Of a stretch of DNA of 54,787 nt, positions 2,141 to 41,183 are shown one piece after another. The notes beneath the pieces were generated by a model, which did not search any database, was not told where the DNA came from, and saw only the letters and a program-made list of their open reading frames with translations. Made by a program: the position numbers and the translations under genes. Position 1 is the stretch's first letter, and the number at the start of each line of letters is the position of its first letter. This DNA is from a virus: positions 1-54,787 of the IMG/VR virus record IMGVR_UViG_3300037233_000021; one strand, written 5' to 3'.

Positions 2141-2142
2141 AT

Positions 2143-3795
2143 TTAACTGACCGTGCCGATAGTGTGCGGCGAGCCGCCTCCAGAGATGACATTGACCGTC
2201 GAGCTATTCTTTGCGATGGCATTGCCAGCTGTGCCAGCTGCGCCGCCAGCGATCTGGAACGTACCGGCAGGGCTGCCACCAGCAGTGCCTGCAGAGCCCC
2301 AGTTGCCACCAGCGCCACCGTCGCCACCGTCCATTCCTGCGCCTGCCTCTGCGCCCGCTCCGCCGACGCCGAAGGCATTGGCTGCAGCTGTCGTGCCTAC
2401 CCGTGAGACCAAGCCGCTGATAGCTGAGTGCGTTCCTGTGTCTGCGTTGATGGCGCGTGCGCCCCTGCCGAAGCGAGGGTTGCCGCCAGCACCGCATCCG
2501 CCGCCGCCCGCATTGGCAACGAGAGATGATGCGCCTGAGTTCGCTGAGCCTACGCCACCGCCGCCACCGCCACCGCCACCGCCCCAGATATAGCCTGCAG
2601 CGTTCGTGACGTTCGTGGTCGTGCCTGAGCCTGAGCACTGGACCGCGATGCCACCGTTGCCACCATCCTGAGCGTCTTCGCCAGTCTGGTCTCCGCCGCT
2701 GCCAGTCATGATCTGCCAGCCACCGTCGCCGCCATAGCCGCCAGCGCCCTGGATATATCCCAGGTTGATGAGGTTGATGACTGAGCCGGATGGCATGCCG
2801 CTCAAGTCCATCGCGGGCAGTAGTGGCGTGAGCGAGGATACGATTGCGCCGCGCCCGACTGTGATCGTGACGTTCACCGGCGATGAGACTGTGCCGCCCA
2901 TCTGAGCAAGCAGGTTGAAGCTGTATGTGTTCTGCTCGATGTTGATCGCAAACGCTGCAGATGCCGAGTTATAGCCTGTGGTCGGAACCTTGCATATCCA
3001 GCTGGTGAAGTGCGAGCTGTACACCATGTTGATGACTGTTACGCCATTGGCGGACGTGTCAACAGTGTTGCTGCCGTTCGGGAAGGCGAATACCGCGTTC
3101 CACGATGTTATATGCCCGCCGCCTGAGTCCTGCGCGAGGATGAGCGTGATGGACTGGCCGTCGATTGGATTGGTCGGTACACCCAGCGTGAGGTTGCCGG
3201 TGAGTACAATGTACTGGCTATTACCGTTCGCAGCGTTGAGCGCGACTGAGCCCGCGTAGGTCTCAACGAAGAACGGGCTCGACATCTGGTTATAGAACTC
3301 AGCGGCTGGAGCTGTCCCCGGCGTGTCAGCGTTCACGCTTGTGTCGAGCCGAGCGTAGAAGGCTGCTACTATACCGCCCAAGGTCGATGCATCGCCGCTC
3401 GCGGAGTAGACGTTATTTGAGCCGTCGCAGTAGCAAAGGGCCACGCCGCCCTGGGGGAGTACAAGAGCAGTTGAAGGTGAGGCAGTCTGCACTGTCACAG
3501 TGAATGCGCCGGATGTGGCGTTATTGAATAGATATACCTTGTTCTCATTAGGGATGACGATAATGACATCGCCCGAGAGAGTGCCGTTGAACTGTATGAC
3601 CGCGTTTCGCGCCTGATTGCTCGCGCCGTTAGTAGTGCTCAGCGTGATTGTACCAGTGCTGATCGTCACAGCGAGATAGCCTGCAATCGCCTGCTCGATC
3701 AGTCCGAATACCACGTTCGCGACGTCGCCCCATGTGTTCGGGTTCGAGCCGTCATCCTGGAGCGTGAGACCTAATGCTGGTGAATATGTGACCAT
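2143..3795 (-). CDS. Tail fibre-like protein with polyglycine C-terminal domain
   Basis: 550 residues. The N-terminal third (with a motif TWGDVANVVFGLIEQAIAGY) resembles the virion-proximal part of phage fibres that carry short β-rich repeats. The middle is Thr/Ser/Val-rich and β-like. From about residue 355 the protein becomes very glycine-rich, with GGYGGDGG, a run of ten or so glycines near residue 405, and further Gly-Ala clusters to the end. Polyglycine sandwiches of this sort form the receptor-reading tips of some phage adhesins (for example T-even gp38 and S16 gp38). Receptor recognition is inferred; no chaperone or tailspike enzyme motif is visible. Confidence 0.7.
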   Translation of the reverse strand: MVTYSPALGLTLQDDGSNPNTWGDVANVVFGLIEQAIAGYLAVTISTGTITLSTTNGASNQARNAVIQFNGTLSGDVIIVIPNENKVYLFNNATSGAFTVTVQTASPSTALVLPQGGVALCYCDGSNNVYSASGDASTLGGIVAAFYARLDTSVNADTPGTAPAAEFYNQMSSPFFVETYAGSVALNAANGNSQYIVLTGNLTLGVPTNPIDGQSITLILAQDSGGGHITSWNAVFAFPNGSNTVDTSANGVTVINMVYSSHFTSWICKVPTTGYNSASAAFAINIEQNTYSFNLLAQMGGTVSSPVNVTITVGRGAIVSSLTPLLPAMDLSGMPSGSVINLINLGYIQGAGGYGGDGGWQIMTGSGGDQTGEDAQDGGNGGIAVQCSGSGTTTNVTNAAGYIWGGGGGGGGGGVGSANSGASSLVANAGGGGCGAGGNPRFGRGARAINADTGTHSAISGLVSRVGTTAAANAFGVGGAGAEAGAGMDGGDGGAGGNWGSAGTAGGSPAGTFQIAGGAAGTAGNAIAKNSSTVNVISGGGSPHTIGTVS

Positions 3796-8011: not shown

Positions 8012-8758
8012 TTATGCCTGGGTCACTCCGAACGCATTCGTGTTGAGCGGACCGCCGAGGGTCTGGTACTCCGTATAGAAGGTCGTCGTTGCCCGCGCGA
8101 GCGTGCCTGCCGGTGAGTACGTGCCACGGACGTCGCCCGTGATGTTCGTAGCCGGTGAGGTCGCATCTGCCTGGACCACTGTGCCAGCGTCAGCTGAGAC
8201 TGTGCCGGATACCATCTTGCTTCCTACCAGAAGTGAGCCTGGGAGTAAGGCGAAGCTCAAGCCAAGGACTGTGCCGAGGCTGACGCCGATGTTGCCGCTT
8301 GTGGTCGCCGTCGCTGTGACGCTGTGGACCGTGTAGAACGCTTTCTTCCCGGCGTCGATGTCTGAGCCTGTGCCGGTCAGGGTGATGAGTTCGCTCATCG
8401 CTGCGCCGTAGTAATCTGTGCCCTGGACCAGGAGGGTCGTGGTGTCCGTGCCGTCAGATGTCACTGTGACGTTGCGCGGGAAGTCGAGAGTTGCCACGCC
8501 GCCTGTGATCGTGATGCCGTTCGCCGAGGCCGCTGTCATAGGATTCGCGACGCCTGCGGTCATTACCGCTACGCCTGCCGTGATCAGCATGCTGGCTGCG
8601 ACCACTGCCGGGTTGCCGAGACCTTCGAACTGCTTGAGTGCTACCGGGACGCCGTTGAGCTGTCCGGCAGCCGAGACTGCGTTGCCCGCGCGAAGGTTGT
8701 CCGTGACGGATATACGATGCTGCGGGTACGTGAATGAACCGTTGAAGGGAGTAACCAT
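8012..8758 (-). CDS. Virion structural protein, paralogue of the repeat protein downstream
   Basis: 248 residues, with AAGGA eight bases before the ATG. The protein starts with TPFNGSFTYPQHRISVTDN, then small-residue β segments. Residues about 95-165 (VTVTSDGTDTTTLLVQGTDY, ELITLTG, KAFYTVHSVTATATTSGNIG) match the order of residues 60-120 of the 488-residue protein (6120-7586). The first gene of the leftward structural block, it faces the early promoters. It may be a decoration or tail-surface protein; no named family is recognised. Confidence 0.6.
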   Translation of the reverse strand: MVTPFNGSFTYPQHRISVTDNLRAGNAVSAAGQLNGVPVALKQFEGLGNPAVVAASMLITAGVAVMTAGVANPMTAASANGITITGGVATLDFPRNVTVTSDGTDTTTLLVQGTDYYGAAMSELITLTGTGSDIDAGKKAFYTVHSVTATATTSGNIGVSLGTVLGLSFALLPGSLLVGSKMVSGTVSADAGTVVQADATSPATNITGDVRGTYSPAGTLARATTTFYTEYQTLGGPLNTNAFGVTQA

Positions 8759-8813: not shown

Positions 8814-8859
8814 TACCATGATTTGGTTTGTGTTCTGCTTTCCATAATACCACGATTTG
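8814..8859 (+). promoter_or_regulatory. Direct-repeat operator candidate at the first early promoter
   Basis: The 12-mer taccatgatttg (8814-8825) is repeated as taccacgatttg (8848-8859) with one mismatch and 34-bp start spacing, about three helical turns. The second copy runs into the -35 box of the promoter at 8857, so a bound protein would compete with RNA polymerase. It also lies between the divergent early and structural genes. The regulator is unknown. Confidence 0.45.
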
Positions 8860-8885
8860 ACGCGGTGCCCGCCGCTCTGTACAAT
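8857..8885 (+). promoter_or_regulatory. Early promoter 1, sigma70-like
   Basis: TTGACG at 8857-8862, a 17-base spacer and TACAAT at 8880-8885, then a short leader with AGGAGG before the ATG at 8909. Ten of twelve hexamer bases match consensus. Like the other cassette promoters, it continues TACAATCC. It reads the first three small genes. Confidence 0.85.
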
Positions 8886-8908
8886 CCTCGCATCACTAGG
8901 AGGATCAC

Positions 8909-9106
8909 ATGGACCGCAACACGACAGCAACGATCACGACCCACGCCTACGACCGCGACTCGAAGTCGATGGTCCGCATCGAGGTATACCTGGAGATCGA
9001 TCTGGTGGCGCTCGCCACCCGCATGGGAAAGAAAGCCTTCGACAGCAAGTCGAAGAAGTCAATCATCTACGGCGGCACAGCAGTCGCCAAGGTCACACGC
9101 TCATGA
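8909..9106 (+). CDS. Early small protein, 65 residues, unknown
   Basis: The first gene after promoter 1, with a strong AGGAGG six bases upstream. The protein is mixed, with a β-like start (TTATITTHAY), an amphipathic helix (RIEVYLEIDLVALATRMG) and a Lys/Ser-rich C-terminus. The stop overlaps the next start as ATGA. No family recognised; by position, a candidate early host-interaction protein. Confidence 0.75.
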   Translation: MDRNTTATITTHAYDRDSKSMVRIEVYLEIDLVALATRMGKKAFDSKSKKSIIYGGTAVAKVTRS

Positions 9107-9237
9107 ACGTCTACACAGTATCCAAGAAGGTCCGCGCGCTCGTGTACTGGCTCGACACCAAGGGCTACTACTACACCGGCAACGTGGTCTGGAATCTCTT
9201 CTACCGCGCCCGCAAGGCCATCTACGGTGGCATATGA
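9103..9237 (+). CDS. Early small aromatic protein, 44 residues, unknown
   Basis: Starts inside the previous stop (ATGA) and ends in another ATGA overlap. It is basic and rich in Tyr/Trp (YWLDTKGYYYTGNVVWNLFY), with an Arg/Lys end. Translational coupling on both sides supports expression. Function unknown. Confidence 0.7.
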   Translation: MNVYTVSKKVRALVYWLDTKGYYYTGNVVWNLFYRARKAIYGGI

Positions 9238-9353
9238 GCGCCCGCACAAAGGAAGTCCTCTACTGGGCGCTGGTAGCTGTGCTCACGGTGCTGTTCGTTC
9301 TTGCTGTGTCTGGCTCGGTGGACGGTGTCGGCGACATGGCAGTCTACGGGTAG
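9234..9353 (+). CDS. Early single-pass membrane protein, 39 residues
   Basis: ATGA-coupled to the preceding gene. A short basic head (SARTKE) leads into one hydrophobic segment of about 20 residues (VLYWALVAVLTVLFVLAV), followed by a polar acidic tail: an N-in, C-out type single-span protein. Too short for family assignment; phage early membrane peptides often disturb the host envelope, but that is inference. Confidence 0.65.
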   Translation: MSARTKEVLYWALVAVLTVLFVLAVSGSVDGVGDMAVYG

Positions 9354-9354
9354 T

Positions 9355-9383
9355 TTGACACGACTCCCGAGAGCGCGTATAAT
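9355..9383 (+). promoter_or_regulatory. Early promoter 2, perfect sigma70 consensus
   Basis: TTGACA at 9355-9360, exactly 17 bases, then TATAAT at 9378-9383: a full consensus match on both boxes. It starts directly after the stop of the previous gene and is followed by TGGAGG and the ATG at 9407. It should be one of the strongest promoters in the window. Confidence 0.92.
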
Positions 9384-9406
9384 CCCGAACGTCACCTGGA
9401 GGTCAC

Positions 9407-9502
9407 ATGTCACGCAACTCCCTTCGCTCACTCAACGCCCTGGTCGCACGAATCGACGCGACCTTCTTCAAACTCATCCTTAAAATCGCAGGAGTCAAAT
9501 AA
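9407..9502 (+). CDS. Early peptide, 31 residues, unknown
   Basis: The first ORF behind promoter 2, with TGGAGG six bases upstream. The 31 residues make an amphipathic, basic helix (RNSLRSLNALVARI, then FFKLILKIAGVK). The stop TAA shares its last A with the ATG of the next gene. Strong promoter, strong ribosome site and coupling argue that it is real. It could be a short membrane-active peptide. Confidence 0.65.
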   Translation: MSRNSLRSLNALVARIDATFFKLILKIAGVK

Positions 9503-9825
9503 TGTCAGTCGCAGCACGCCAACTGGTAGATATGCTCGTAGTTCGTCGCTTGATCGACAGCGCAGCCAAACAGGGCTGGGCGCTCACGCACATCAGTGAC
9601 GGCGACGAGGAACACAAGGTAGACAGCACCGAGGAAGCGCTCGGGCTGATCTTCAACCTGGACGACGCGCAGCTGAGCTTCAAGCGCCTGGGTAAACGCA
9701 ACCTCGCCGATGTGATCGAGTCCATATACTCCTGGTGTAACAGGCTGGACGCTGGCCTCAAAGGCAACAGCGCGCAGCGCGACAGACAGGTGATGGAAAT
9801 TCTCAACTCACTGGAGATCAAATAA
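9502..9825 (+). CDS. Early protein of 107 residues, unknown
   Basis: Coupled to the previous peptide by TAATG; AGGAG lies ten bases upstream. The protein is mostly helical: an N-terminal basic helix (ARQLVDMLVVRRLIDSAAKQ), an acidic stretch with ISDGDEEHK, and helices around IESIYSWCNRLDAGL to the end. It is soluble, with no catalytic motif. I do not recognise a family. Confidence 0.75.
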   Translation: MSVAARQLVDMLVVRRLIDSAAKQGWALTHISDGDEEHKVDSTEEALGLIFNLDDAQLSFKRLGKRNLADVIESIYSWCNRLDAGLKGNSAQRDRQVMEILNSLEIK

Positions 9826-9826
9826 C

Positions 9827-9889
9827 ATGGGACGCACACCCACAGCACCGTTCTACCTCAAGGTGGAACGCTTCGTGGTGCAGGCATGA
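9827..9889 (+). CDS. Possible early peptide, 20 residues
   Basis: A short reading frame filling the space between two genes: ATG at 9827, stop overlapping the next ATG (ATGA at 9886). GGAG sits about ten bases upstream, inside the preceding gene. Twenty residues, with a FYLKVERFVV strand. It may serve only to couple translation. Confidence 0.4.
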   Translation: MGRTPTAPFYLKVERFVVQA

Positions 9890-10101
9890 ACGCAGTAGAG
9901 ATGTACGGCGAGACGTTCTTCCGGGTGTACGGTAAGTACCCTGGTGCGAAGCGCTGGTCGCCGATGGACCTCCAGTCAGGCAGCTGCGTCGGCAACCTGA
10001 TATATGCGACCTTCTTCGACAGCGAGGCACAGGCTGATGCTGCGGTCGCTGAGGCAACCCGATTGAACCCCGAATGGTCATTTGAAACGAGGAAAGTATG
10101 A
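9886..10101 (+). CDS. Early protein of 71 residues, unknown
   Basis: ATGA-coupled on both sides. A mixed αβ protein: MYGETFFRVYGK, a polar loop, then IYATFFDSEAQADAAVAEAT, which looks like a strand followed by a helix of the kind found in small phage proteins with a single α/β sandwich. No catalytic residues stand out. Function unknown. Confidence 0.75.
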   Translation: MNAVEMYGETFFRVYGKYPGAKRWSPMDLQSGSCVGNLIYATFFDSEAQADAAVAEATRLNPEWSFETRKV

Positions 10102-10337
10102 GCGCCAAGATCTACAACTTCGACGACTACAAGCGCAAGCGCATCCTGGAGGCTGCGGCCAAGCTCGAAGCTCGCGCGGCATACCTGCGCGCGAACAAGC
10201 GCGGCACACCCCGCACAGACGAGCAGGTGACTCTCGCCTGCACTGAGTACCAGGACGCCCTGCGCCAGTGGCAGGACAACCACATGGACGGCTCGGACTG
10301 CGGCTGCTCGAATGGGCAGAGCCGGTGGTTCCAGTGA
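10098..10337 (+). CDS. Early basic helical protein with C-terminal Cys-rich tail, 79 residues
   Basis: Starts in the ATGA overlap. The first 60 residues are a highly charged helix (DDYKRKRILEAAAKLEARAA), the end carries DCGCSNGQ, and there is no complete zinc site. The stop overlaps a GTG start (GTGA). Function unknown. Confidence 0.75.
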   Translation: MSAKIYNFDDYKRKRILEAAAKLEARAAYLRANKRGTPRTDEQVTLACTEYQDALRQWQDNHMDGSDCGCSNGQSRWFQ

Positions 10338-10618
10338 GCGAGTATAATGTCGGTCGCTACTTCACTCCAGGCGAGACTGGGCAGCTTGCCTGCTGCCTAT
10401 ACCGCGCGGGTCGCACCCGCCTGCACATCCTCGTGATTGAGTCATCCGGTGTGATCGTACTGACGCCGCGCCTGGACGAGGCCAAGTTCATCACGCCGCT
10501 GCTGCACAAGTCTGACCCGTACCCGCTTGACAGGGCCGTCAGGCGGTTCAGGGCTGCGGGCCGCACCCTGGGCATCACTGAGGGGGCGAAAGCCGAACTG
10601 GAGAGGGCTGCGTCATGA
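10334..10618 (+). CDS. Early protein of 94 residues, unknown, GTG start
   Basis: Start taken at the GTG in the GTGA overlap, because an upstream ATG in this frame would overlap the previous gene by 70 bases. The N-terminal half is β-rich (TRLHILVIESSGVIVLTPRL), the C-terminal half helical and basic. The stop overlaps the next ATG (ATGA). No family recognised. Confidence 0.7.
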   Translation: MSEYNVGRYFTPGETGQLACCLYRAGRTRLHILVIESSGVIVLTPRLDEAKFITPLLHKSDPYPLDRAVRRFRAAGRTLGITEGAKAELERAAS

Positions 10619-10848
10619 AGGACCCAGGCAACCCTGACTTCTCGGACCTAGAGAACCTGGGGGATCTGCGAGGAGATCCCCTGGGGCCGGTGCATCAGGT
10701 AGCGGCTGGCAATGCCTTCTCCCCTGGTCCGCGTATGATTCCCTGCAGCCGGTGCAAAGGCACTGGCAACCATCCCTGCGGTCGCTGCTTCAAGTGCCAG
10801 GGCTCAGGGAAGATGCTGGCACCGAAGCGCGGTATGCGAATAGATTGA
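10615..10848 (+). CDS. DnaJ-type zinc-ribbon small protein
   Basis: 77 residues. After an acidic head, the C-terminal half has CSRCKGTG-(7)-CFKCQGSG, two CxxCxGxG repeats like the zinc-binding motif of DnaJ. No J domain is present, so this is a free-standing zinc ribbon, probably binding protein or nucleic acid. The last in the promoter 2 group: the next promoter overlaps its last codons. Confidence 0.75.
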   Translation: MKDPGNPDFSDLENLGDLRGDPLGPVHQVAAGNAFSPGPRMIPCSRCKGTGNHPCGRCFKCQGSGKMLAPKRGMRID

Positions 10849-10873
10849 CACCCAGCAACCAACCCTGTACAAT
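10845..10873 (+). promoter_or_regulatory. Early promoter 3, sigma70-like
   Basis: TTGACA at 10845-10850 overlaps the stop of the preceding gene; 17 bases later comes TACAAT (10868-10873), again followed by CC. TAGGAG precedes the ATG at 10898. Eleven of twelve bases match consensus. Confidence 0.9.
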
Positions 10874-10897
10874 CCAACCTCCAACTAGGAGATCATC

Positions 10898-11104
10898 ATG
10901 CTACTCGCAATGTACGACACCAAGAAGCTCTGCAAGTCCCACACGGGCGAGCCCCTGCGCTACCGCGAAACCTCGATGTTCGGTACCGAGTACCGCTCTG
11001 ACGGCGTACTGACGGTGGCGCACCGCCCGCACATCACAGGCACGGGTCGCGAATGGTTCGCTCGCATCACGATGAAGGGCGGGTTGATCGCGAAGGTCGA
11101 ATAG
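10898..11104 (+). CDS. Early protein of 68 residues, unknown
   Basis: The sole gene behind promoter 3, with CTAGGAG nine bases upstream. A β-rich basic protein (YDTKKLCKSHTGEPLRYRET, then LTVAHRPHI and FARITMKGGLIAKVE) that looks like a compact barrel, possibly nucleic-acid binding. The promoter 4 -10 box overlaps the sequence just past its end. Confidence 0.7.
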   Translation: MLLAMYDTKKLCKSHTGEPLRYRETSMFGTEYRSDGVLTVAHRPHITGTGREWFARITMKGGLIAKVE

Positions 11105-11112
11105 AGTATAAT
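11084..11112 (+). promoter_or_regulatory. Early promoter 4, sigma70-like
   Basis: TTGATC at 11084-11089, 17 bases, TATAAT at 11107-11112. The -35 box is inside the preceding gene. GGAGG at 11129-11133 serves the ATG at 11142. It renews transcription of the second half of the cassette. Confidence 0.8.
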
Positions 11113-11141
11113 CGAATCTCAACAGCTTGGAGGCTATGCCA

Positions 11142-11405
11142 ATGAAGAGCGCTTTTGAAACCGGGCGCAGCGAACACTGCGCCGAGCAGATGACTCAGGG
11201 TCAGGCTGCTATCGTCCTCACCGGGTTCGCCCCGGTAGGTTCCAAACTCTGGATTGAGGCCCGCGCGGTATTTAAACGCATGCGCGAGCGCTACGCTGTA
11301 CAGGACGCCTGTGCAGAGGCTTACCACTTCGGCTTAAAAGATGGCCGCAAGTCGAAGCGCCTGGAGATCAGCTGTGAACAGATCAAAGCGGGCCAGCGCT
11401 CATGA
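11142..11405 (+). CDS. Early protein of 87 residues, unknown
   Basis: The ATG at 11142 is eight bases from GGAGG; the alternatives at 11127 and 11136 are too close to that site. Soluble and helical, with a central GFAPVGSKLWIEARAVFKRM and a basic C-terminus (GRKSKRLEISCEQIKAG). ATGA-coupled to the next gene. Function unknown. Confidence 0.7.
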   Translation: MKSAFETGRSEHCAEQMTQGQAAIVLTGFAPVGSKLWIEARAVFKRMRERYAVQDACAEAYHFGLKDGRKSKRLEISCEQIKAGQRS

Positions 11406-11620
11406 ACACCTTCCAAGACCTCAACGCCGGTGACCGCGTGCGCTTCATGCGGACCAACGGCATAGGGCGCAACGGAGTCGAATGGGTCGAGGCCACCGGC
11501 ACCGTGCTCAAGTACCTAGCCTTCGCGAACCACGTAGTCGTGGCGGTTGCAGGAGGAAAGGGCAACCCCTACGTAGTAGACGCCAAGAACTTCAAGGCAG
11601 TCGTGAGGAGGATCGCATGA
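11402..11620 (+). CDS. Early SH3-like small protein, 72 residues
   Basis: The β pattern LNAGDRVRFMRTNGIG...ATGTVLKYLAFANHVVVAV...NFKAVVRRI, with GDRVRF and a GTV turn, resembles small SH3-like barrels such as those binding RNA or peptides. Coupled by ATGA overlaps to both neighbours. The fold assignment is by eye only. Confidence 0.65.
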   Translation: MNTFQDLNAGDRVRFMRTNGIGRNGVEWVEATGTVLKYLAFANHVVVAVAGGKGNPYVVDAKNFKAVVRRIA

Positions 11621-11784
11621 ACACCATAGATTTTGAGGCTCCCCTGATGACCCTCGCTGACGCCTTCCGCGACCTGGATCAGGCCGAGTCAGAGTCAATC
11701 AAGTACCGCCAGGACGCTGAATCCGCACGCGAGGAGCGCGCGAGAACCGCCGCCAAGAAATACTACGACCGACAGGAGAAATAA
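11617..11784 (+). CDS. Early charged helical protein, 55 residues
   Basis: The ATG lies in the ATGA overlap, with GAGGA eight bases upstream. Almost entirely charged helix (FRDLDQAESESIKYRQDAES, then a basic AREERARTAAKKYYDRQEK), probably a coiled coil. Function unknown. Confidence 0.65.
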   Translation: MNTIDFEAPLMTLADAFRDLDQAESESIKYRQDAESAREERARTAAKKYYDRQEK

Positions 11785-11785
11785 A

Positions 11786-11965
11786 ATGTTCAGCTGGATG
11801 TTCTGGAAGATCCCGATCACTGGTGTACGCATCCGTTACACCGGGCCGATCAACTCTGACCGCGCTCGCGCGTCGCTACAGGGAAAGCTCTGTGTTGCTC
11901 GGGTGTACGCTCCCCCCGCCATCCTGCAGAAGAAGCTGAAGAAGCTGAAGAAGGCCACATCATGA
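11786..11965 (+). CDS. Early basic protein, 59 residues
   Basis: AGGAG precedes the ATG by seven bases; it starts two bases after the previous stop. A short aromatic head (FSWMFWKIP), a β part, and a Lys-rich helix (LQKKLKKLKKA) at the end. ATGA-coupled to the next gene. No family recognised. Confidence 0.65.
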   Translation: MFSWMFWKIPITGVRIRYTGPINSDRARASLQGKLCVARVYAPPAILQKKLKKLKKATS

Positions 11966-12141
11966 AACACAAAGACACACTGCGTCGCGAAGCCATCGAG
12001 CGCCTGGAGCGCACACCTACCAGCAGCGGCAGCACGCGCCGCGAGCGCAATGGCATCTCTGAGACCGAGGACGAGGTTGTCGCCCGCCGCAACGCGGAGG
12101 CCGCGCGCCTGCGCGAGAAGTTCGGGAAGCTTATCAAGTGA
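11962..12141 (+). CDS. Early Arg/Glu-rich helical protein, 59 residues
   Basis: Coupled by ATGA upstream and GTGA downstream. Charged throughout (LRREAIERLERTPTSSGSTR and ARRNAEAARLREKFGKLIK): probably helical and nucleic-acid or protein binding. Function unknown. Confidence 0.65.
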   Translation: MKHKDTLRREAIERLERTPTSSGSTRRERNGISETEDEVVARRNAEAARLREKFGKLIK

Positions 12142-12377
12142 CAGCGCGCAACGTAACTCATGGCATGAAGGTCCAGGAGCGGCACCGTAAGAACGCCGCA
12201 GGCGATATGGTCCACTACGTCGAGATGTGGTGCCCGGTGGAGCGAGTCCTGCCGCCGCCAGTCGATCTGCCTACCAAGGTAGTGTTCGAGGAACCTCCCC
12301 CTGAGATGACGATCCGCACCCGTCTCAGGTTCGAGGCACGTACCCTGTCCGAGATGATCCTGCCCTGGAGAAAGTAA
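12138..12377 (+). CDS. Early protein of 79 residues, unknown, GTG start
   Basis: The GTG lies in the GTGA overlap; an internal ATG nine codons on would remove a plausible β strand. Polar and basic, with a Pro-rich middle (ERVLPPPVDLPTKVVFEEPP). It ends in TAATG with the next gene. Function unknown. Confidence 0.65.
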   Translation: MTARNVTHGMKVQERHRKNAAGDMVHYVEMWCPVERVLPPPVDLPTKVVFEEPPPEMTIRTRLRFEARTLSEMILPWRK

Positions 12378-12607
12378 TGCTAACCCTAATCGTATTTGGT
12401 TCTACGGCTGATACGGAGGTCGAGACCTCCGGCAGAGGGATTGCTGTCCAGCAGTTCATCTACGACCGCCTGTGTAATTCAACCCTGTGCCTGCTCCAGG
12501 TACAGTTCCAGCCAGGACTATTCGCTGCCCTGAAGCGCTGGTACACGGACCCGTTCTCTAAGGCTCTTCCGGGCGAGCTGCTCTACTACGGGGCGGACCC
12601 TCGATGA
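12377..12607 (+). CDS. Early protein of 76 residues, unknown
   Basis: TAATG-coupled, with GGAG 13 bases upstream. It begins with a hydrophobic strand (LTLIVFGSTAD), followed by a helix and two cysteines (LCNSTLCLLQ). ATGA-coupled to a tiny membrane peptide. No family recognised. Confidence 0.65.
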   Translation: MLTLIVFGSTADTEVETSGRGIAVQQFIYDRLCNSTLCLLQVQFQPGLFAALKRWYTDPFSKALPGELLYYGADPR

Positions 12608-12690
12608 CCTGGAGAGACTGGCTCACGCTCGCATCCCCGCAGCTTGCTATACTGGCTGCATGGTTTATCTATCTGGAGTACCACCTATGA
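12604..12690 (+). CDS. Tiny membrane peptide, 28 residues
   Basis: ATGA overlaps at both ends. One hydrophobic segment (LASPQLAILAAWFIYLEY) after a WRDW head. Such coupled membrane micropeptides recur in this window. Real expression is likely because its end carries the ribosome site of the next gene. Confidence 0.55.
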   Translation: MTWRDWLTLASPQLAILAAWFIYLEYHL

Positions 12691-13193
12691 AGCTCAGTAA
12701 CCTTCCACCCGGCGTGACCGACGCAGCTATCGAGCGGCAAGTTGCCGACGACGATGGTATGGCTATCCAGCCGGAGCTGGTAGAAGGCACGCTTGCTGAT
12801 CTGGTCCCACCCAAACCCAAGTACCCGAACGCGCTCGCGGAGATGTGGAACGAGACCCTGTTCTCACGCATCCGAGCTGGCAACTTCAAAGGCTTCCGTG
12901 GCATCCAGACGAAGCGCCATAGCGGCGTCAGCGCGCGCACCCACGGGCGAGAGATCGAACGACTGAAGGAGATGGGTATGACACCAAAGCAAGGGCGCGG
13001 TCTCGTACCGGCGCATGGACTGGGCTCGATCAACGTCGAGAGCGATGCGGTAGAGCTGGCGCGAGTCGGCAAGTACCCCGAGGCGATCAAGCTCCTGGAG
13101 AGCTGGCAGCCACACTACATGCGCCATCACGAGCGCAAGGCATACCGCCTGAACTTCTGGCGTTCACGGCTACTGCATGTGGTGCAAGCATGA
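12687..13193 (+). CDS. Early protein of 168 residues, unknown
   Basis: The start at 12687 (GGAG eight bases upstream) is preferred over an ATG at 12660 that lacks a ribosome site. Residues about 60-115 are basic (IRAGNFKGFRGIQTKRHSGV, then a Gly/Arg loop with KQGRGLVPAHG), followed by a helix-turn-helix-like C-terminal part. It could bind nucleic acid. No catalytic motif. ATGA-coupled to the last cassette gene. Confidence 0.7.
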   Translation: MKLSNLPPGVTDAAIERQVADDDGMAIQPELVEGTLADLVPPKPKYPNALAEMWNETLFSRIRAGNFKGFRGIQTKRHSGVSARTHGREIERLKEMGMTPKQGRGLVPAHGLGSINVESDAVELARVGKYPEAIKLLESWQPHYMRHHERKAYRLNFWRSRLLHVVQA

Positions 13194-13528
13194 ACATCGC
13201 CGAAGCACAACGCAGGATGGAACAGGCCGAGCAGGCGGGGCGAGACCTGCAGGCGCTGGTCGATTCACTGACGGCTATGATAGCAATCATGGCACAGCAG
13301 GTGTCCTTGCAGCGCGCCGCGATATGGGCAATGATGTCCCAGGCAGCAATGGATGAGGTCTCTCAAGATCCTGTGAAGAATCCATGGCTCGGGCTGAAGT
13401 CTGAGTTCGCCGGGAAGATCAACCCGCTGGTGGTTGCGCTGAACAAGATGATGGGTGTGAAGGTAACGCCGATCCCTGAGGGTGCGGCCAAGTCAGTAGT
13501 GGTTGCAACTGAGATGCCGAGGAGGTAG
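13190..13528 (+). CDS. Early helical protein of 112 residues, last gene of the cassette
   Basis: A coiled-coil N-terminus (AEAQRRMEQAEQAGRDLQAL), a Met/Ala-rich amphipathic helix (MIAIMAQQVSLQRAAIWAMM), then a polar part ending in EMPRR. Its last codons contain the promoter of the small RNA candidate. Function unknown. Confidence 0.7.
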   Translation: MNIAEAQRRMEQAEQAGRDLQALVDSLTAMIAIMAQQVSLQRAAIWAMMSQAAMDEVSQDPVKNPWLGLKSEFAGKINPLVVALNKMMGVKVTPIPEGAAKSVVVATEMPRR

Positions 13529-13531
13529 AAT
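13503..13531 (+). promoter_or_regulatory. Promoter of the small RNA candidate
   Basis: TTGCAA at 13503-13508, 17 bases, TAGAAT at 13526-13531 (the TAG stop of the last early gene lies in the -10 box). Nine of twelve bases match consensus. The only thing downstream before a strong terminator is a run of hairpins. Confidence 0.55.
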
Positions 13532-13535
13532 ACTC

Positions 13536-13621
13536 GCATTGCGCGATGTCGCGCAGCCCAGCCGGGTCCGCTCCTACCCCGCTGGAAGACTTAGGCCCTG
13601 GTCACTCCGGGGCATTTTTTT
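13536..13621 (+). ncRNA. Candidate small structured RNA of about 85 nt
   Basis: Between a promoter-like element and a terminator lie three consecutive stems: TGCGCG-ATGT-CGCGCA (13540-13555), CCAGC-c-GGGT with ACCC-c-GCTGG and an 8-base loop (13558-13585), and the terminator stem (13595-13613). The transcript would hold no ribosome site or reading frame. It may be a regulatory RNA, or only the end of the early mRNA. No Rfam family is recognised. Confidence 0.5.
13595..13621 (+). terminator. Rho-independent terminator of the early cassette
   Basis: GCCCTGG / CCGGGGC stem (13595-13601 with 13607-13613, one G-U pair), loop TCACT, then A and seven Ts. It sits at the meeting point of the rightward early genes and the leftward accessory block. 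Confidence 0.9.
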
Positions 13622-17913: not shown

Positions 17914-18384
17914 TCAATTCCCCTTGAGGTTCCAGCCAACCCAGTAGCTAATGTACGCCTGCATGCCGAAGCCATTCATGCCTGGAGTTGAGCCGGTCAC
18001 TACGGAGCGTCCGTCCCATCCGTCACCCCAATGGTGCTCGTCCACTGCCTCAACACCTACGGTCACGATACCGTTACTGAAGTGCCGGTCGATGCGCGCG
18101 CCGAACGCCGGGATCACCTTGTCGTTGTACGACAGATGGTTTCGGTCGTCGCTGAGAGTGACGCTGCCATACGTGTCGAACGTGAAGTTATGGACCTTGA
18201 ACCAGTCAATGCCCTGGGTGATCTTGCCGATGTACAGCACGTTGCCAGTCTCGGGCGTGTTCTGCATCACGCTACTCGGAGCGATCACAGCACCCCAACT
18301 CGAACCTGGGTATGCGAGAGGGCCGTCAGCGAACGCAGCAGACGAGGCGAGGATCGCTACGACTGCAAAAGCTATCTGTTTCAT
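17914..18384 (-). CDS. Exported β-strand-rich protein next to glycosyltransferase
   Basis: 156 residues. The start at 18384 gives a Sec signal (KQIAFAVVAILASSAAFADG). The mature part alternates polar and aromatic/hydrophobic residues in strand-like runs (NFTFDTYGSVTLSDD, VIPAFGARIDRHFSNGIVTV, GMQAYISYWVGWNLKGN), suggesting a β-barrel or sandwich at the outer membrane. It is the immediate neighbour of the glycosyltransferase (18398-19468), 13 bases downstream, so the two may act together. A weak likeness to the C-terminal domain of N4-adsorption protein NfrA is possible but unproven. Confidence 0.6.
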   Translation of the reverse strand: MKQIAFAVVAILASSAAFADGPLAYPGSSWGAVIAPSSVMQNTPETGNVLYIGKITQGIDWFKVHNFTFDTYGSVTLSDDRNHLSYNDKVIPAFGARIDRHFSNGIVTVGVEAVDEHHWGDGWDGRSVVTGSTPGMNGFGMQAYISYWVGWNLKGN

Positions 18385-18397
18385 GAACATCATTTCC

Positions 18398-19468
18398 TTA
18401 AGTTGATGGGACAATTGAATCGAAATTATAGCGCTGAACCTTATTCCATGTCAAGATGGTTTTGCGGAGCAGGATGATCTCTACAAAGCTTCTCAGGAAC
18501 GCGAACGTGTTCAGGTAAGACAGCCAGTAAAACACCGGAACTTTGCACAGCACATCCCATCGCTTGGTCTTGAGCGCGATCATCACGCCGACGCCCAGGT
18601 AGCACGCCAGATCAACCAAGACGCCCAGCGCTACCCACTTGATGGGGAACGCCCAGCAGAGAAGTGGCAGCGTAAAGAAACGATTGAGCAGCAAGGTGTC
18701 TAGCACGAGGTACATCATGTACCAGTCCACTGGGCGCTTGGGCGCTAGAGAAAACGTCTTGTGCTTGAGGACAATCTGCCAGAAGCCACGGTTCCACCGC
18801 ATGTTCTGCTTCATGAAGTCCTCGAACGTGCTCGGGTCTTGAGTGATGACCCCTGCCCCGTGGATATACTTGATCTTGCCCTGCATGCGATGCACCTGGA
18901 GGGTGAGGTCCATATCTTCAGCGAGCGTGCCCGCATCGATGTTCAGCTTCATCAGCTCTGACAGCCGGTACATCGAGGCACAGCCCGGTGAGACCGTGAT
19001 CATGTTGAAGTTGGCCTGCCCGCCCTTGATGACCTCGTGCGAGAAGGTGTACTCATACGCCCGCAGAGCGCCCCAGATGTGGTTGCTCTTGGCAGACTTC
19101 ACCTGACCGATGAGCAGCGCGGCGTCAGGGTTCTGCTCTGCCGCCTCATACATGACGTTGAGAAACTGCGACTCCACCTGGGAGTCCGCGTCCACGAACA
19201 CCACCCACTGGTAGCGGTCCTGAAGCCTGAAGTGTGCCAGCCCGTAGTTCTGAGCGTGCGCTTTGCATCCGCCCTTCTCGGGCACGGTGTAGACGGTGAC
19301 GCCCTTGGCGCGCGCGAGCGCCGCCGTAGCATCTGACGACATGTCGTCCACAACGTAGATGTCGCTGCGATTGAAGCCTGCAGCACGCAGGGATGCTATC
19401 GTGCCTTCAATGACCCGCTCTTCGTTGAACGCGGGAATAAGCACGCAGATCTTGGGCTCGGGTGTCAT
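18398..19468 (-). CDS. Processive-type family 2 glycosyltransferase, membrane-bound
   Basis: 356 residues. The GT-A fold of GT2 enzymes is clear: ICVLIPAFNEERVIEGTIAS at the nucleotide site, DDMSSDAT, the DAD metal motif (93-95), AEDMD (183-187), and QNMRW (221-225), the Q/RxxRW signature of processive synthases such as PgaC/IcaA, NodC, cellulose and hyaluronan synthases. Three hydrophobic segments follow (about 251-275, 278-300, 310-335), which could form the export channel; the N-terminal spans of PgaC are missing. It probably polymerises a sugar on the inner membrane. No good ribosome site is visible before 19468. Product sugar unknown. Confidence 0.85.
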   Translation of the reverse strand: MTPEPKICVLIPAFNEERVIEGTIASLRAAGFNRSDIYVVDDMSSDATAALARAKGVTVYTVPEKGGCKAHAQNYGLAHFRLQDRYQWVVFVDADSQVESQFLNVMYEAAEQNPDAALLIGQVKSAKSNHIWGALRAYEYTFSHEVIKGGQANFNMITVSPGCASMYRLSELMKLNIDAGTLAEDMDLTLQVHRMQGKIKYIHGAGVITQDPSTFEDFMKQNMRWNRGFWQIVLKHKTFSLAPKRPVDWYMMYLVLDTLLLNRFFTLPLLCWAFPIKWVALGVLVDLACYLGVGVMIALKTKRWDVLCKVPVFYWLSYLNTFAFLRSFVEIILLRKTILTWNKVQRYNFDSIVPST

Positions 19469-19495
19469 GCCAGGAGTGTAGCACAAAAGGTTCGG

Positions 19496-19567
19496 TGCCG
19501 GGTCTCTGAATCGAACAGAGGAATGGCAGTTTACAAAACTGCTGCTGTGCCACTGAGCCAACCCGGC
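19496..19567 (-). tRNA. tRNA-Thr (TGT), first copy
   Basis: Acceptor GCCGGGT/ACCCGGC, anticodon stem GCAGT around loop TTTGTAA (anticodon TGT), T-arm CTCTG-TTCGATT-CAGAG, discriminator A. The 3' CCA is not encoded (CCG follows). Reads ACA. Confidence 0.92.
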
Positions 19568-19571
19568 GAGA

Positions 19572-19597
19572 TGGAGCGGAGCCGGGGCCAGCCCCGC
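19572..19597 (-). pseudogene. Internally deleted tRNA-Gly remnant
   Basis: 26 nt. The first 11 nt (GCGGGGCTGGC) equal the 5' end of the intact tRNA-Gly at 20155-20228, and the rest (CCCGGCTCCGCTCCA) equals its 3' end except for one base. About 48 nt including the anticodon arm are missing. It cannot be functional. Confidence 0.75.
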
Positions 19598-19645
19598 TTG
19601 TTCAGCTACCGGCGCTGTTCACGTTACATGAACGGAGCCAGAAAA

Positions 19646-19720
19646 TGGCTCCGAGAGATGGGATCGAACCACCGACCACGCCATTAACAGGGGCGCGCTC
19701 TACCGCTGAGCTATCCCGGA
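19646..19720 (-). tRNA. tRNA-Asn (GTT)
   Basis: Acceptor TCCGGGA/TCTCGGA (one G-U), anticodon loop CTGTTAA (GTT), with one mismatch at the base of the anticodon stem, T-loop TTCGATC, and encoded GCCA end. Reads AAC/AAT. Confidence 0.9.
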
Positions 19721-19905
19721 ATGTACTTAAGACTCGGCGCGCGCACAGGTGTTGGCCGCTCTACAACACTTCGGACGCCATGCGCGAACCGTCCCGGAGT
19801 TGAGGTCCGCCCTATCTCGCCGCACAGGCGATGGGCTCCTTGGCCCAGGCAGGCTTACTTATTTCAGCCCGCTCAATGCGCAACGCCAACCGTCTCCCGG
19901 CGAAC
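19721..19905. other. Gap inside the tRNA array, degenerate tRNA-like stems
   Basis: About 185 bases with no complete tRNA on either strand. Short hairpins exist (TGGGC-TCCTTG-GCCCA at about 19833, GTGTTG/CAACAC near 19750), but none makes a cloverleaf. Probably decayed tRNA or other RNA genes. Confidence 0.4.
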
Positions 19906-19980
19906 TGGTGGACCGCCTCGGACTCAAACCGAGCAGGCTAACTCCGTGCAAGGGAATTCCGGGTACTCTGCCCGCAGCCC
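19906..19980 (-). tRNA. tRNA-Ala (TGC), divergent D-arm
   Basis: Acceptor GGGCTGC/GCGGTCC pairs throughout, with G-T at pair 3, the G3-U70 identity element of alanine tRNA. Anticodon arm ATTCC-CTTGCAC-GGAGT, T-arm CTCGG-TTTGAGT-CCGAG, encoded ACCA. The D-arm (about GGG-CAGAGTA-CCC) lacks U8, A14 and the G18G19 pair, and C56 of the T-loop is replaced by T. Confidence 0.6.
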
Positions 19981-19998
19981 AGTGCGTCTATCATATCA

Positions 19999-20072
19999 TG
20001 GCGGGCCGGTAAGGACTCGAACCTTAATGAACGGTTTTGGAGACCGTGATCCTACTATTGGATTACCAACCC
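19999..20072 (-). tRNA. tRNA-Trp (CCA)
   Basis: Acceptor GGGTTGG/CCGGCCC (two G-U), anticodon arm ACGGT-CTCCAAA-ACCGT (anticodon CCA), T-arm TAAGG-TTCGAGT-CCTTA, encoded GCCA. Confidence 0.92.
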
Positions 20073-20074
20073 GG

Positions 20075-20146
20075 TGCCGTGTCTCTGAATCGAACAGAGG
20101 AATGGCGGCTTACAAAACCACTGCTGTACCACTGAGCCAACACGGC
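20075..20146 (-). tRNA. tRNA-Thr (TGT), second copy
   Basis: Acceptor GCCGTGT/ACACGGC, anticodon loop TTTGTAA (TGT), T-arm identical to the first copy. CCA not encoded. The pair differ mainly in compensatory acceptor and anticodon-stem changes. Confidence 0.92.
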
Positions 20147-20154
20147 GAAAAAAG

Positions 20155-20228
20155 TGGAGCGGAGCCAGGGAATCGAACCCTGATACCCAGTTTGGAAGAC
20201 TGATGCACTGCCAATATGCCAGCCCCGC
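20155..20228 (-). tRNA. tRNA-Gly (TCC)
   Basis: Acceptor GCGGGGC/GCTCCGC (one G-U), anticodon loop CTTCCAA (TCC), T-arm CAGGG-TTCGATT-CCCTG, encoded TCCA. Reads GGA. The parent of the remnant at 19572. Confidence 0.92.
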
Positions 20229-20240
20229 TCGCGAACAAAA

Positions 20241-20318
20241 TGGTCTGTCGGGAAGGATTTGAACCTTCGACCCTCCGGTTCCAGACCGGATACTCTAACC
20301 AGACTGAGCTACCAACAG
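20241..20318 (-). tRNA. tRNA-Pro (TGG)
   Basis: Acceptor CTGTTGG/CCGACAG with C1-G72, the hallmark of proline tRNA. Anticodon stem TCCGG/CCGGA around TCTGGAA (anticodon TGG; position 33 is C, not the usual T). T-arm GAAGG-TTCAAAT-CCTTC, encoded ACCA. Confidence 0.85.
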
Positions 20319-40797: not shown

Positions 40798-40806
40798 ACT
40801 AAAAGC

Positions 40807-40835
40807 TGTCGGCAGTCCAGGAACCGTGTTAAGAT
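40807..40835 (+). promoter_or_regulatory. Promoter candidate for the recombination operon, extended -10
   Basis: TGT-TAAGAT (-10 at 40830-40835 with an upstream TG) is an extended -10. The -35 region, TGTCGG at 40807-40812, is poor. It would start a transcript near 40842, at the first leader hairpin. Confidence 0.45.
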
Positions 40836-40837
40836 AA

Positions 40838-41024
40838 GGGAACCTACGGAGGGTTCTACCTCCTACTCTTGGAGTACCGAAGGTACGAAGGGCTAACAGT
40901 TCGATCCGAATCTAATCTCTACTGTAGAGATAGCATCAGGAATAGGATTCGAACTTTAAGTGTTTTTTTTCTGCAGTCTGATTCGGAAGTCTATACCAGT
41001 AATTATCTAAGAGGGATATGTCAA
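40838..41024 (+). promoter_or_regulatory. Structured 5' leader of the recombination operon
   Basis: About 185 nt without a gene. It contains GAACC-7-GGTTC (40840-40856), GTACC-GAA-GGTAC (40874-40886), an outer GTTCGA/TCGAAC pair (40899-40904 with 40949-40954) around a perfect 17-bp palindrome ATCTCTAC-T-GTAGAGAT (40915-40931). The palindrome could be an operator, or the whole a regulatory RNA. Confidence 0.5.
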
Positions 41025-41183
41025 ATGGCTAGAGTTGACCTGGATTCCCTCACCGAAACTGAACGCCGGGATGAGCTGCGATTCCGCACAGTCCTGATGA
41101 ACCTCCAGCGCGCCTGGAAAAAAAATGATCTTCCACCTACCTTAACTCCAGAAGAGTGTGCTATCATCTGGTCAGATGATTGA
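41025..41183 (+). CDS. Small charged protein, 52 residues
   Basis: ATG at 41025 with AGAGGG nine bases upstream; a longer frame from 40869 falls in the structured leader. ARVDLDSLTETERRDELRFR, a basic helix RAWKKND, then a polar end. The first gene of the rightward operon. Unknown. Confidence 0.65.
   Translation: MARVDLDSLTETERRDELRFRTVLMNLQRAWKKNDLPPTLTPEECAIIWSDD

Follow-up and report, generated by a model that had tools for sequence, protein, structure and literature searches.

In T4-type phages, early promoters reportedly stand before small accessory genes within mobile promoter-stem-loop (PeSL) cassettes, for which Arbiol et al. in 2010 (cited in PMC4177764) are said to have proposed a role in gene shuffling. 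The locus described here resembles these cassettes in that early-type promoters precede small genes, and they are the closest model for the idea that small genes are added as modules. However, no stem-loop or terminator lies beside the promoters here (a scan of the + strand from 8857 to 13595 found no terminator-like site), there is no repeated sequence beyond the promoter hexamers, and most of the gene turnover is away from the promoters. PeSL-type cassettes were therefore rejected, as stem-loop and repeated homologous sequence were both looked for and both absent.

Early regions with multiple sigma70 promoters are a known style in virulent phages. Kayvirus 515A1, which infects Staphylococcus, has 58 early promoters and several multi-promoter units, with transcript starts mapped by RNA sequencing (PMC7698491). 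Our locus is similar in its many consensus sigma70 promoters, in having units with more than one promoter, and in its small genes of unrecognised product, which in Kayvirus make up a host-takeover module. Whereas terminators separate the Kayvirus units, a single short operon is present here, known from its sequence alone. In SIRV2 and other archaeal viruses, a conserved early promoter precedes anti-defence genes, with both expression and function tested (PMC11065993). Clustered small unrelated genes with a common strong promoter type are seen in both cases, but the archaeal viruses use TATA/BRE promoters before single genes, and the predicted sites here are of the bacterial sigma70 type and stand in front of whole blocks of coupled genes.

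Four predicted promoters in one small-gene operon

The window, that is, the whole stretch of DNA analysed, is a linear piece of an unclassified phage, 54,787 bases long, from the IMG/VR virus records. About 21 small + strand genes, mostly of unrecognised product, form a single operon from 8909 to 13528. As structural genes occupy the opposite strand up to 8758, the predicted promoter at 8857 is a divergent-junction promoter. The features are as follows:

8857..8885, + strand: predicted lead promoter P1, TTGACG-17-TACAAT, 10/12 consensus bases, in the divergent intergenic gap opposite gene 8012-8758 (- strand)
8909..9106, + strand: 65-aa gene, unmatched in the close relative and in phage records
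9103..9237, + strand: 44-aa gene, no match in the close relative
9234..9353, + strand: 39-aa hydrophobic gene, one probable membrane helix
9355..9383, + strand: predicted internal promoter P2, perfect TTGACA-17-TATAAT, 12/12, 1 nt past the preceding stop
9407..9502, + strand: 31-aa gene, the first behind P2
9502..10618, + strand: small genes 9502-9825, 9827-9889, 9886-10101, 10098-10337 and 10334-10618, overlapping or abutting, no promoter between them
10615..10848, + strand: 77-aa gene with CxxCxGxG-type cysteine motifs
10845..10873, + strand: predicted internal promoter P3, TTGACA-17-TACAAT, 11/12, the -35 lying across the stop codon of 10615-10848
10898..11104, + strand: 68-aa gene, phrog_37117
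11084..11112, + strand: predicted internal promoter P4, TTGATC-17-TATAAT, 10/12, the -35 lying within the end of 10898-11104
11142..12607, + strand: overlapping small genes 11142-11405, 11402-11620, 11617-11784, 11786-11965, 11962-12141, 12138-12377 and 12377-12607, behind P4
12604..12690, + strand: 28-aa hydrophobic gene, closing the apparent gap before 12687
12687..13528, + strand: last two operon genes, 12687-13193 and 13190-13528, with orthologs in the relative
13595..13613, + strand: predicted intrinsic terminator, with no earlier + strand terminator-like site after P1

Sigma70-type sites were defined as hexamers near TTGACA and TATAAT separated by 16-18 nt, the host's own sigma70 being assumed to have this preference. 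All four sites are of this type, each with a 17-nt spacing, and they are the only + strand sites with at least 10/12 consensus bases in the whole 54.8-kb window. Dinucleotide shuffles of the 2.3-kb stretch gave a mean of 0.037 sites of at least 10/12 (at most 2 in 2000 trials), and when the whole window was shuffled, none of 600 shuffled strands contained a 2.26-kb cluster of four sites. Set against the four sites observed, this expectation indicates that the cluster is not due to chance; judged by their sequence, the four promoters are real. A C directly follows the -10 in all of them, so that the core TAYAATC holds in 4/4, and an ATG preceded by GGAG(G) lies 23-29 nt past each -10. The sequence-only reading, which had described four sigma70-type promoters with this spacer and core, a perfect site at 9355, and short leaders with strong ribosome sites, is thereby confirmed. 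Its view that this is a region of small phage genes, mostly with unrecognised products and served by host-type promoters, is supported.

It had also called the promoters near-identical, and here it was mistaken. Outside the hexamers the sites are only 12-47% alike in pairwise comparisons of the spacers and 7-47% alike after the -10, and a repeat search found no direct repeat spanning two promoters. With both spacers and downstream bases dissimilar, the recurring parts are limited to the hexamers, their spacing, and the short leader with its ribosome site. The placement of the -35 boxes at or inside the ends of preceding genes proved right for 9355 (just after the gene), 10845 (across the stop) and 11084 (inside), but not for 8857, which lies in the divergent gap. 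Finally, ending the cassette at 11112 cuts through the unit, as the operon continues to 13528.

Adjacent genes of the operon share 1 or 4 nt or lie no more than 1 nt apart (junctions of -4 to +1 nt), the exceptions being four gaps of 150, 53, 49 and 37 nt, each of which contains one promoter. A candidate fifth promoter at about 12647 (TATACT after TG) was dropped, since the 28-aa gene fills the apparent gap and a -35 is absent. As the operon has no terminator-like site inside it, nested transcripts with a common 3' end are expected from the promoters, and not separate promoter-gene modules.

Domain and known-defence libraries gave nothing useful for the operon proteins, and ten cassette proteins compared with known defence-system models had no match. 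The 77-aa protein (10615-10848) carries paired CxxC motifs, CSRCKGTG and CFKCQGSG, which by eye appear DnaJ zinc-finger-like; no family match above threshold was obtained for it.

The operon in related phages

The best relative, contig 3300014501_000085 (L009, L010 and L016), is the sole close relative covering the whole operon, and its DNA is about 65-77% identical to the window in most aligned blocks. It has orthologs, in the same order, of genes 9407, 10098, 10615, 10898, 11142, 11402, 11962, 12138, 12687 and 13190 (69% identity for 10615, 66% for 12687 and 88% for 13190). A gene similar to the hydrophobic gene 9234 (E 5e-4) is located elsewhere in the relative's operon, before the 10098 ortholog, and a T-rich hairpin is present in L010 at the position matching the 13595 terminator.

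P3 and P4 both have counterparts in front of the same genes. For P3, the relative has TTGACA-17-TATACT, in which TTGACA, the 17-nt spacing and 4/6 of the -10 bases are kept while the spacer has diverged; for P4 it has TTGATA-18-TATAAT, with TATAAT and the TTGAT core kept and a spacer of 17 or 18. The counterpart of P2, before the 9407 ortholog, is weak (TTGACT-17-TATCGT, 9/12). The relative lacks the P1 unit (the 8857 promoter with 8909 and 9103), and its first operon gene is the 9407 ortholog. A promoter-like site at the lead junction is found in L010 as well as in the more distant L001. Gap and promoter do not always coincide, as a 59-nt gap in L010 (3618-3678) has no clear promoter.

Eight genes of the window are unmatched in the relative: 8909, 9103, 9502, 9886, 10334, 11617, 11786 and 12377 (9827 was left out of the comparison). 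All but the first two of these (6/8) lie in promoter-less stretches, coupled to their neighbors by start/stop overlaps. The main zone of gene turnover is 9502-10618, in which 10098 alone has an ortholog in the relative (9827-9889 again being left out). The sequence-only reading had suggested that small genes were added as modules, each with its own promoter, and had proposed comparing related phages for gain or loss of promoter-gene units. With one close relative available, joint gain or loss is seen for P1 with 8909 and 9103 but not for P2-P4. As a general rule modular addition is not supported, since P3 and P4 precede the same genes in both phages, 9355 has a weaker counterpart, and most unmatched genes lie away from promoters.

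The distant relative L001 encodes a junction protein 62% identical to that of the window, but has very few operon genes in common with it; the last operon gene, 13190-13528, is also present (32%). On the reverse complement of L001, a lead promoter TTGACA-18-TACGAT is predicted at 10532 and an internal promoter TTGCGC-17-TATACT at 11059, the latter having its -35 inside the end of the preceding 33-aa gene. The presence of lead and internal promoters with mostly other genes suggests that the architecture has been kept while the genes changed. Another related contig, 3300050138_000037 (L015), stops short of the cassette. Among phage records, a near search returned no nucleotide relatives and a distant search matched the 68-aa gene alone; no prophage or host was found when the junction gene was compared with genome contigs.

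The 68-aa protein and its homologs

The 68-aa gene (10898-11104) belongs to phrog_37117, its protein matching the profile over the full length (E 7e-26, residues 2-68 on profile positions 4-71 of 71). Homologs are found in many unrelated phages, among them phages of Rhodobacter, Pseudomonas, Tunturiibacter, Roseobacter and Erythrobacter, and 297 candidate stretches in IMG/VR encode relatives, of which the best 80 of 297 were kept. A strong promoter (at least 10/12) was found in 8/63 distinct regions upstream of homologs in other viral contigs, as against 2.1 expected, and several of the eight positives are close copies of one another, so that the excess rests on few independent cases. The proposal that a promoter always accompanies this family was dropped in view of this weak enrichment. 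By these sequence comparisons, the gene is mobile across phages, usually without a strong promoter of its own. The predicted structure is confident (pLDDT 94); no significant match to the predicted fold was found in the PDB or a viral structure library, nor any match to the sequence in the PDB. As a member of a widespread phage family without known function, the protein is a fair assay target.

In contig L012, successive small genes within 2141-3003 are preceded by three TTTACT-17-TATAAT promoters that closely resemble one another (two of them have almost identical spacers), and the first of these genes is a phrog_37117 homolog. Promoter repetition is better exemplified by L012 than by the window.

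Use and origin of the promoters

The most likely explanation, in which we have fairly good confidence, is a small-gene operon that would be read by the host sigma70 polymerase from a lead promoter and three internal promoters, giving nested transcripts to one terminator. Host RNA polymerase would start at 8857, 9355, 10845 and 11084, as we infer from the predicted promoters, and all transcripts would run to the 13595 terminator and have one common 3' end, so that the later genes receive transcription from more promoters. Each internal promoter sits in the operon's only kind of gap, where its -35 meets or enters the 3' end of the gene before it, and the leader behind it would open a new translationally coupled block. 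The internal promoters might boost the blocks further along and let translation restart from a new ribosome site. Since no phage factor is needed for the sites to match the host consensus, expression of the operon probably begins immediately on entry, i.e., early, and a host-takeover or counter-defence role for it is plausible. We are rather doubtful of a further suggestion, namely that the block behind the promoters, including the phrog_37117 protein, is an immediate-early host-takeover or counter-defence set, and that the position rule, a consensus promoter in a gap of about 37-53 nt within an otherwise overlapping operon, could serve to recognise genes of this kind elsewhere in the unclassified phage group.

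That the sites are chance matches, and that a single lead promoter or a phage polymerase accounts for all reading of the operon, is very improbable. Likeness to a consensus is by itself no evidence of function, and in the first 20 kb weaker 9/12 sites are about as frequent as expected by chance, but the number, strand, gap position and conservation of the four sites are strongly above chance. A different matter is how the promoters originated. They may have arisen in place, selection for more transcription of blocks, once the operon had grown, having made the few gene gaps into promoters, with gene turnover going on independently. This is consistent with promoters that are unrelated in sequence except for the consensus, and with -35 boxes made from the preceding gene's stop codon or coding sequence (10845, 11084 and 11059 of L001), although the joint loss or gain of P1 and its genes is left unexplained; we consider such an origin only slightly short of probable. 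It can hold together with the nested-transcript explanation.

Alternatively, recombination at the promoters or close to them might have brought in the small genes singly, each together with a promoter and ribosome site of its own. The absence of P1, 8909 and 9103 from the close relative, where the 9407 ortholog leads, favors such arrivals, as do the similar promoters before the phrog_37117 homolog and the next genes in L012 and the several GTTGAC-17-TATRTT sites around the 68-aa homolog of RcTitan. We nevertheless regard this account as unlikely for the operon, since in the relative P3 and P4 remain fixed before the same genes, promoter-less stretches hold six of the eight unmatched genes, the promoters offer no common sequence for recombination beyond the hexamers, and most 68-aa homologs are without a strong promoter. 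What the sequence suggests is an ordinary early-type operon with internal promoters, in which promoter-plus-gene addition would fit only the P1 unit. The idea of repeated early promoters is often merged with that of accessory-gene movement, and here the two appear mostly uncoupled. The map of the small-gene operon obtained here is clean and testable, and it comes from a phage group about which little is known.

Elsewhere in the window, a second divergent junction is located at 40800-41030, with replication genes (primase/helicase, replication initiation) on the - strand and an operon encoding an Erf-like protein, exonucleases and SSB on the + strand side; a search of this junction for + strand sites of 9/12 or better returned none. 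Six consecutive tRNA genes (Thr, Asn, Trp, Thr, Gly, Pro) are present at 19494-20318 (- strand). A perfect 12/12 site, TTGACA-18-TATAAT, lies at 18454-18425 (- strand), within the 3'-terminal part of a glycosyltransferase-like gene (18398-19561, - strand). It precedes gene 17914-18384 (- strand), which encodes a protein with an apparent signal peptide and looks like an accessory gene with its own predicted promoter.
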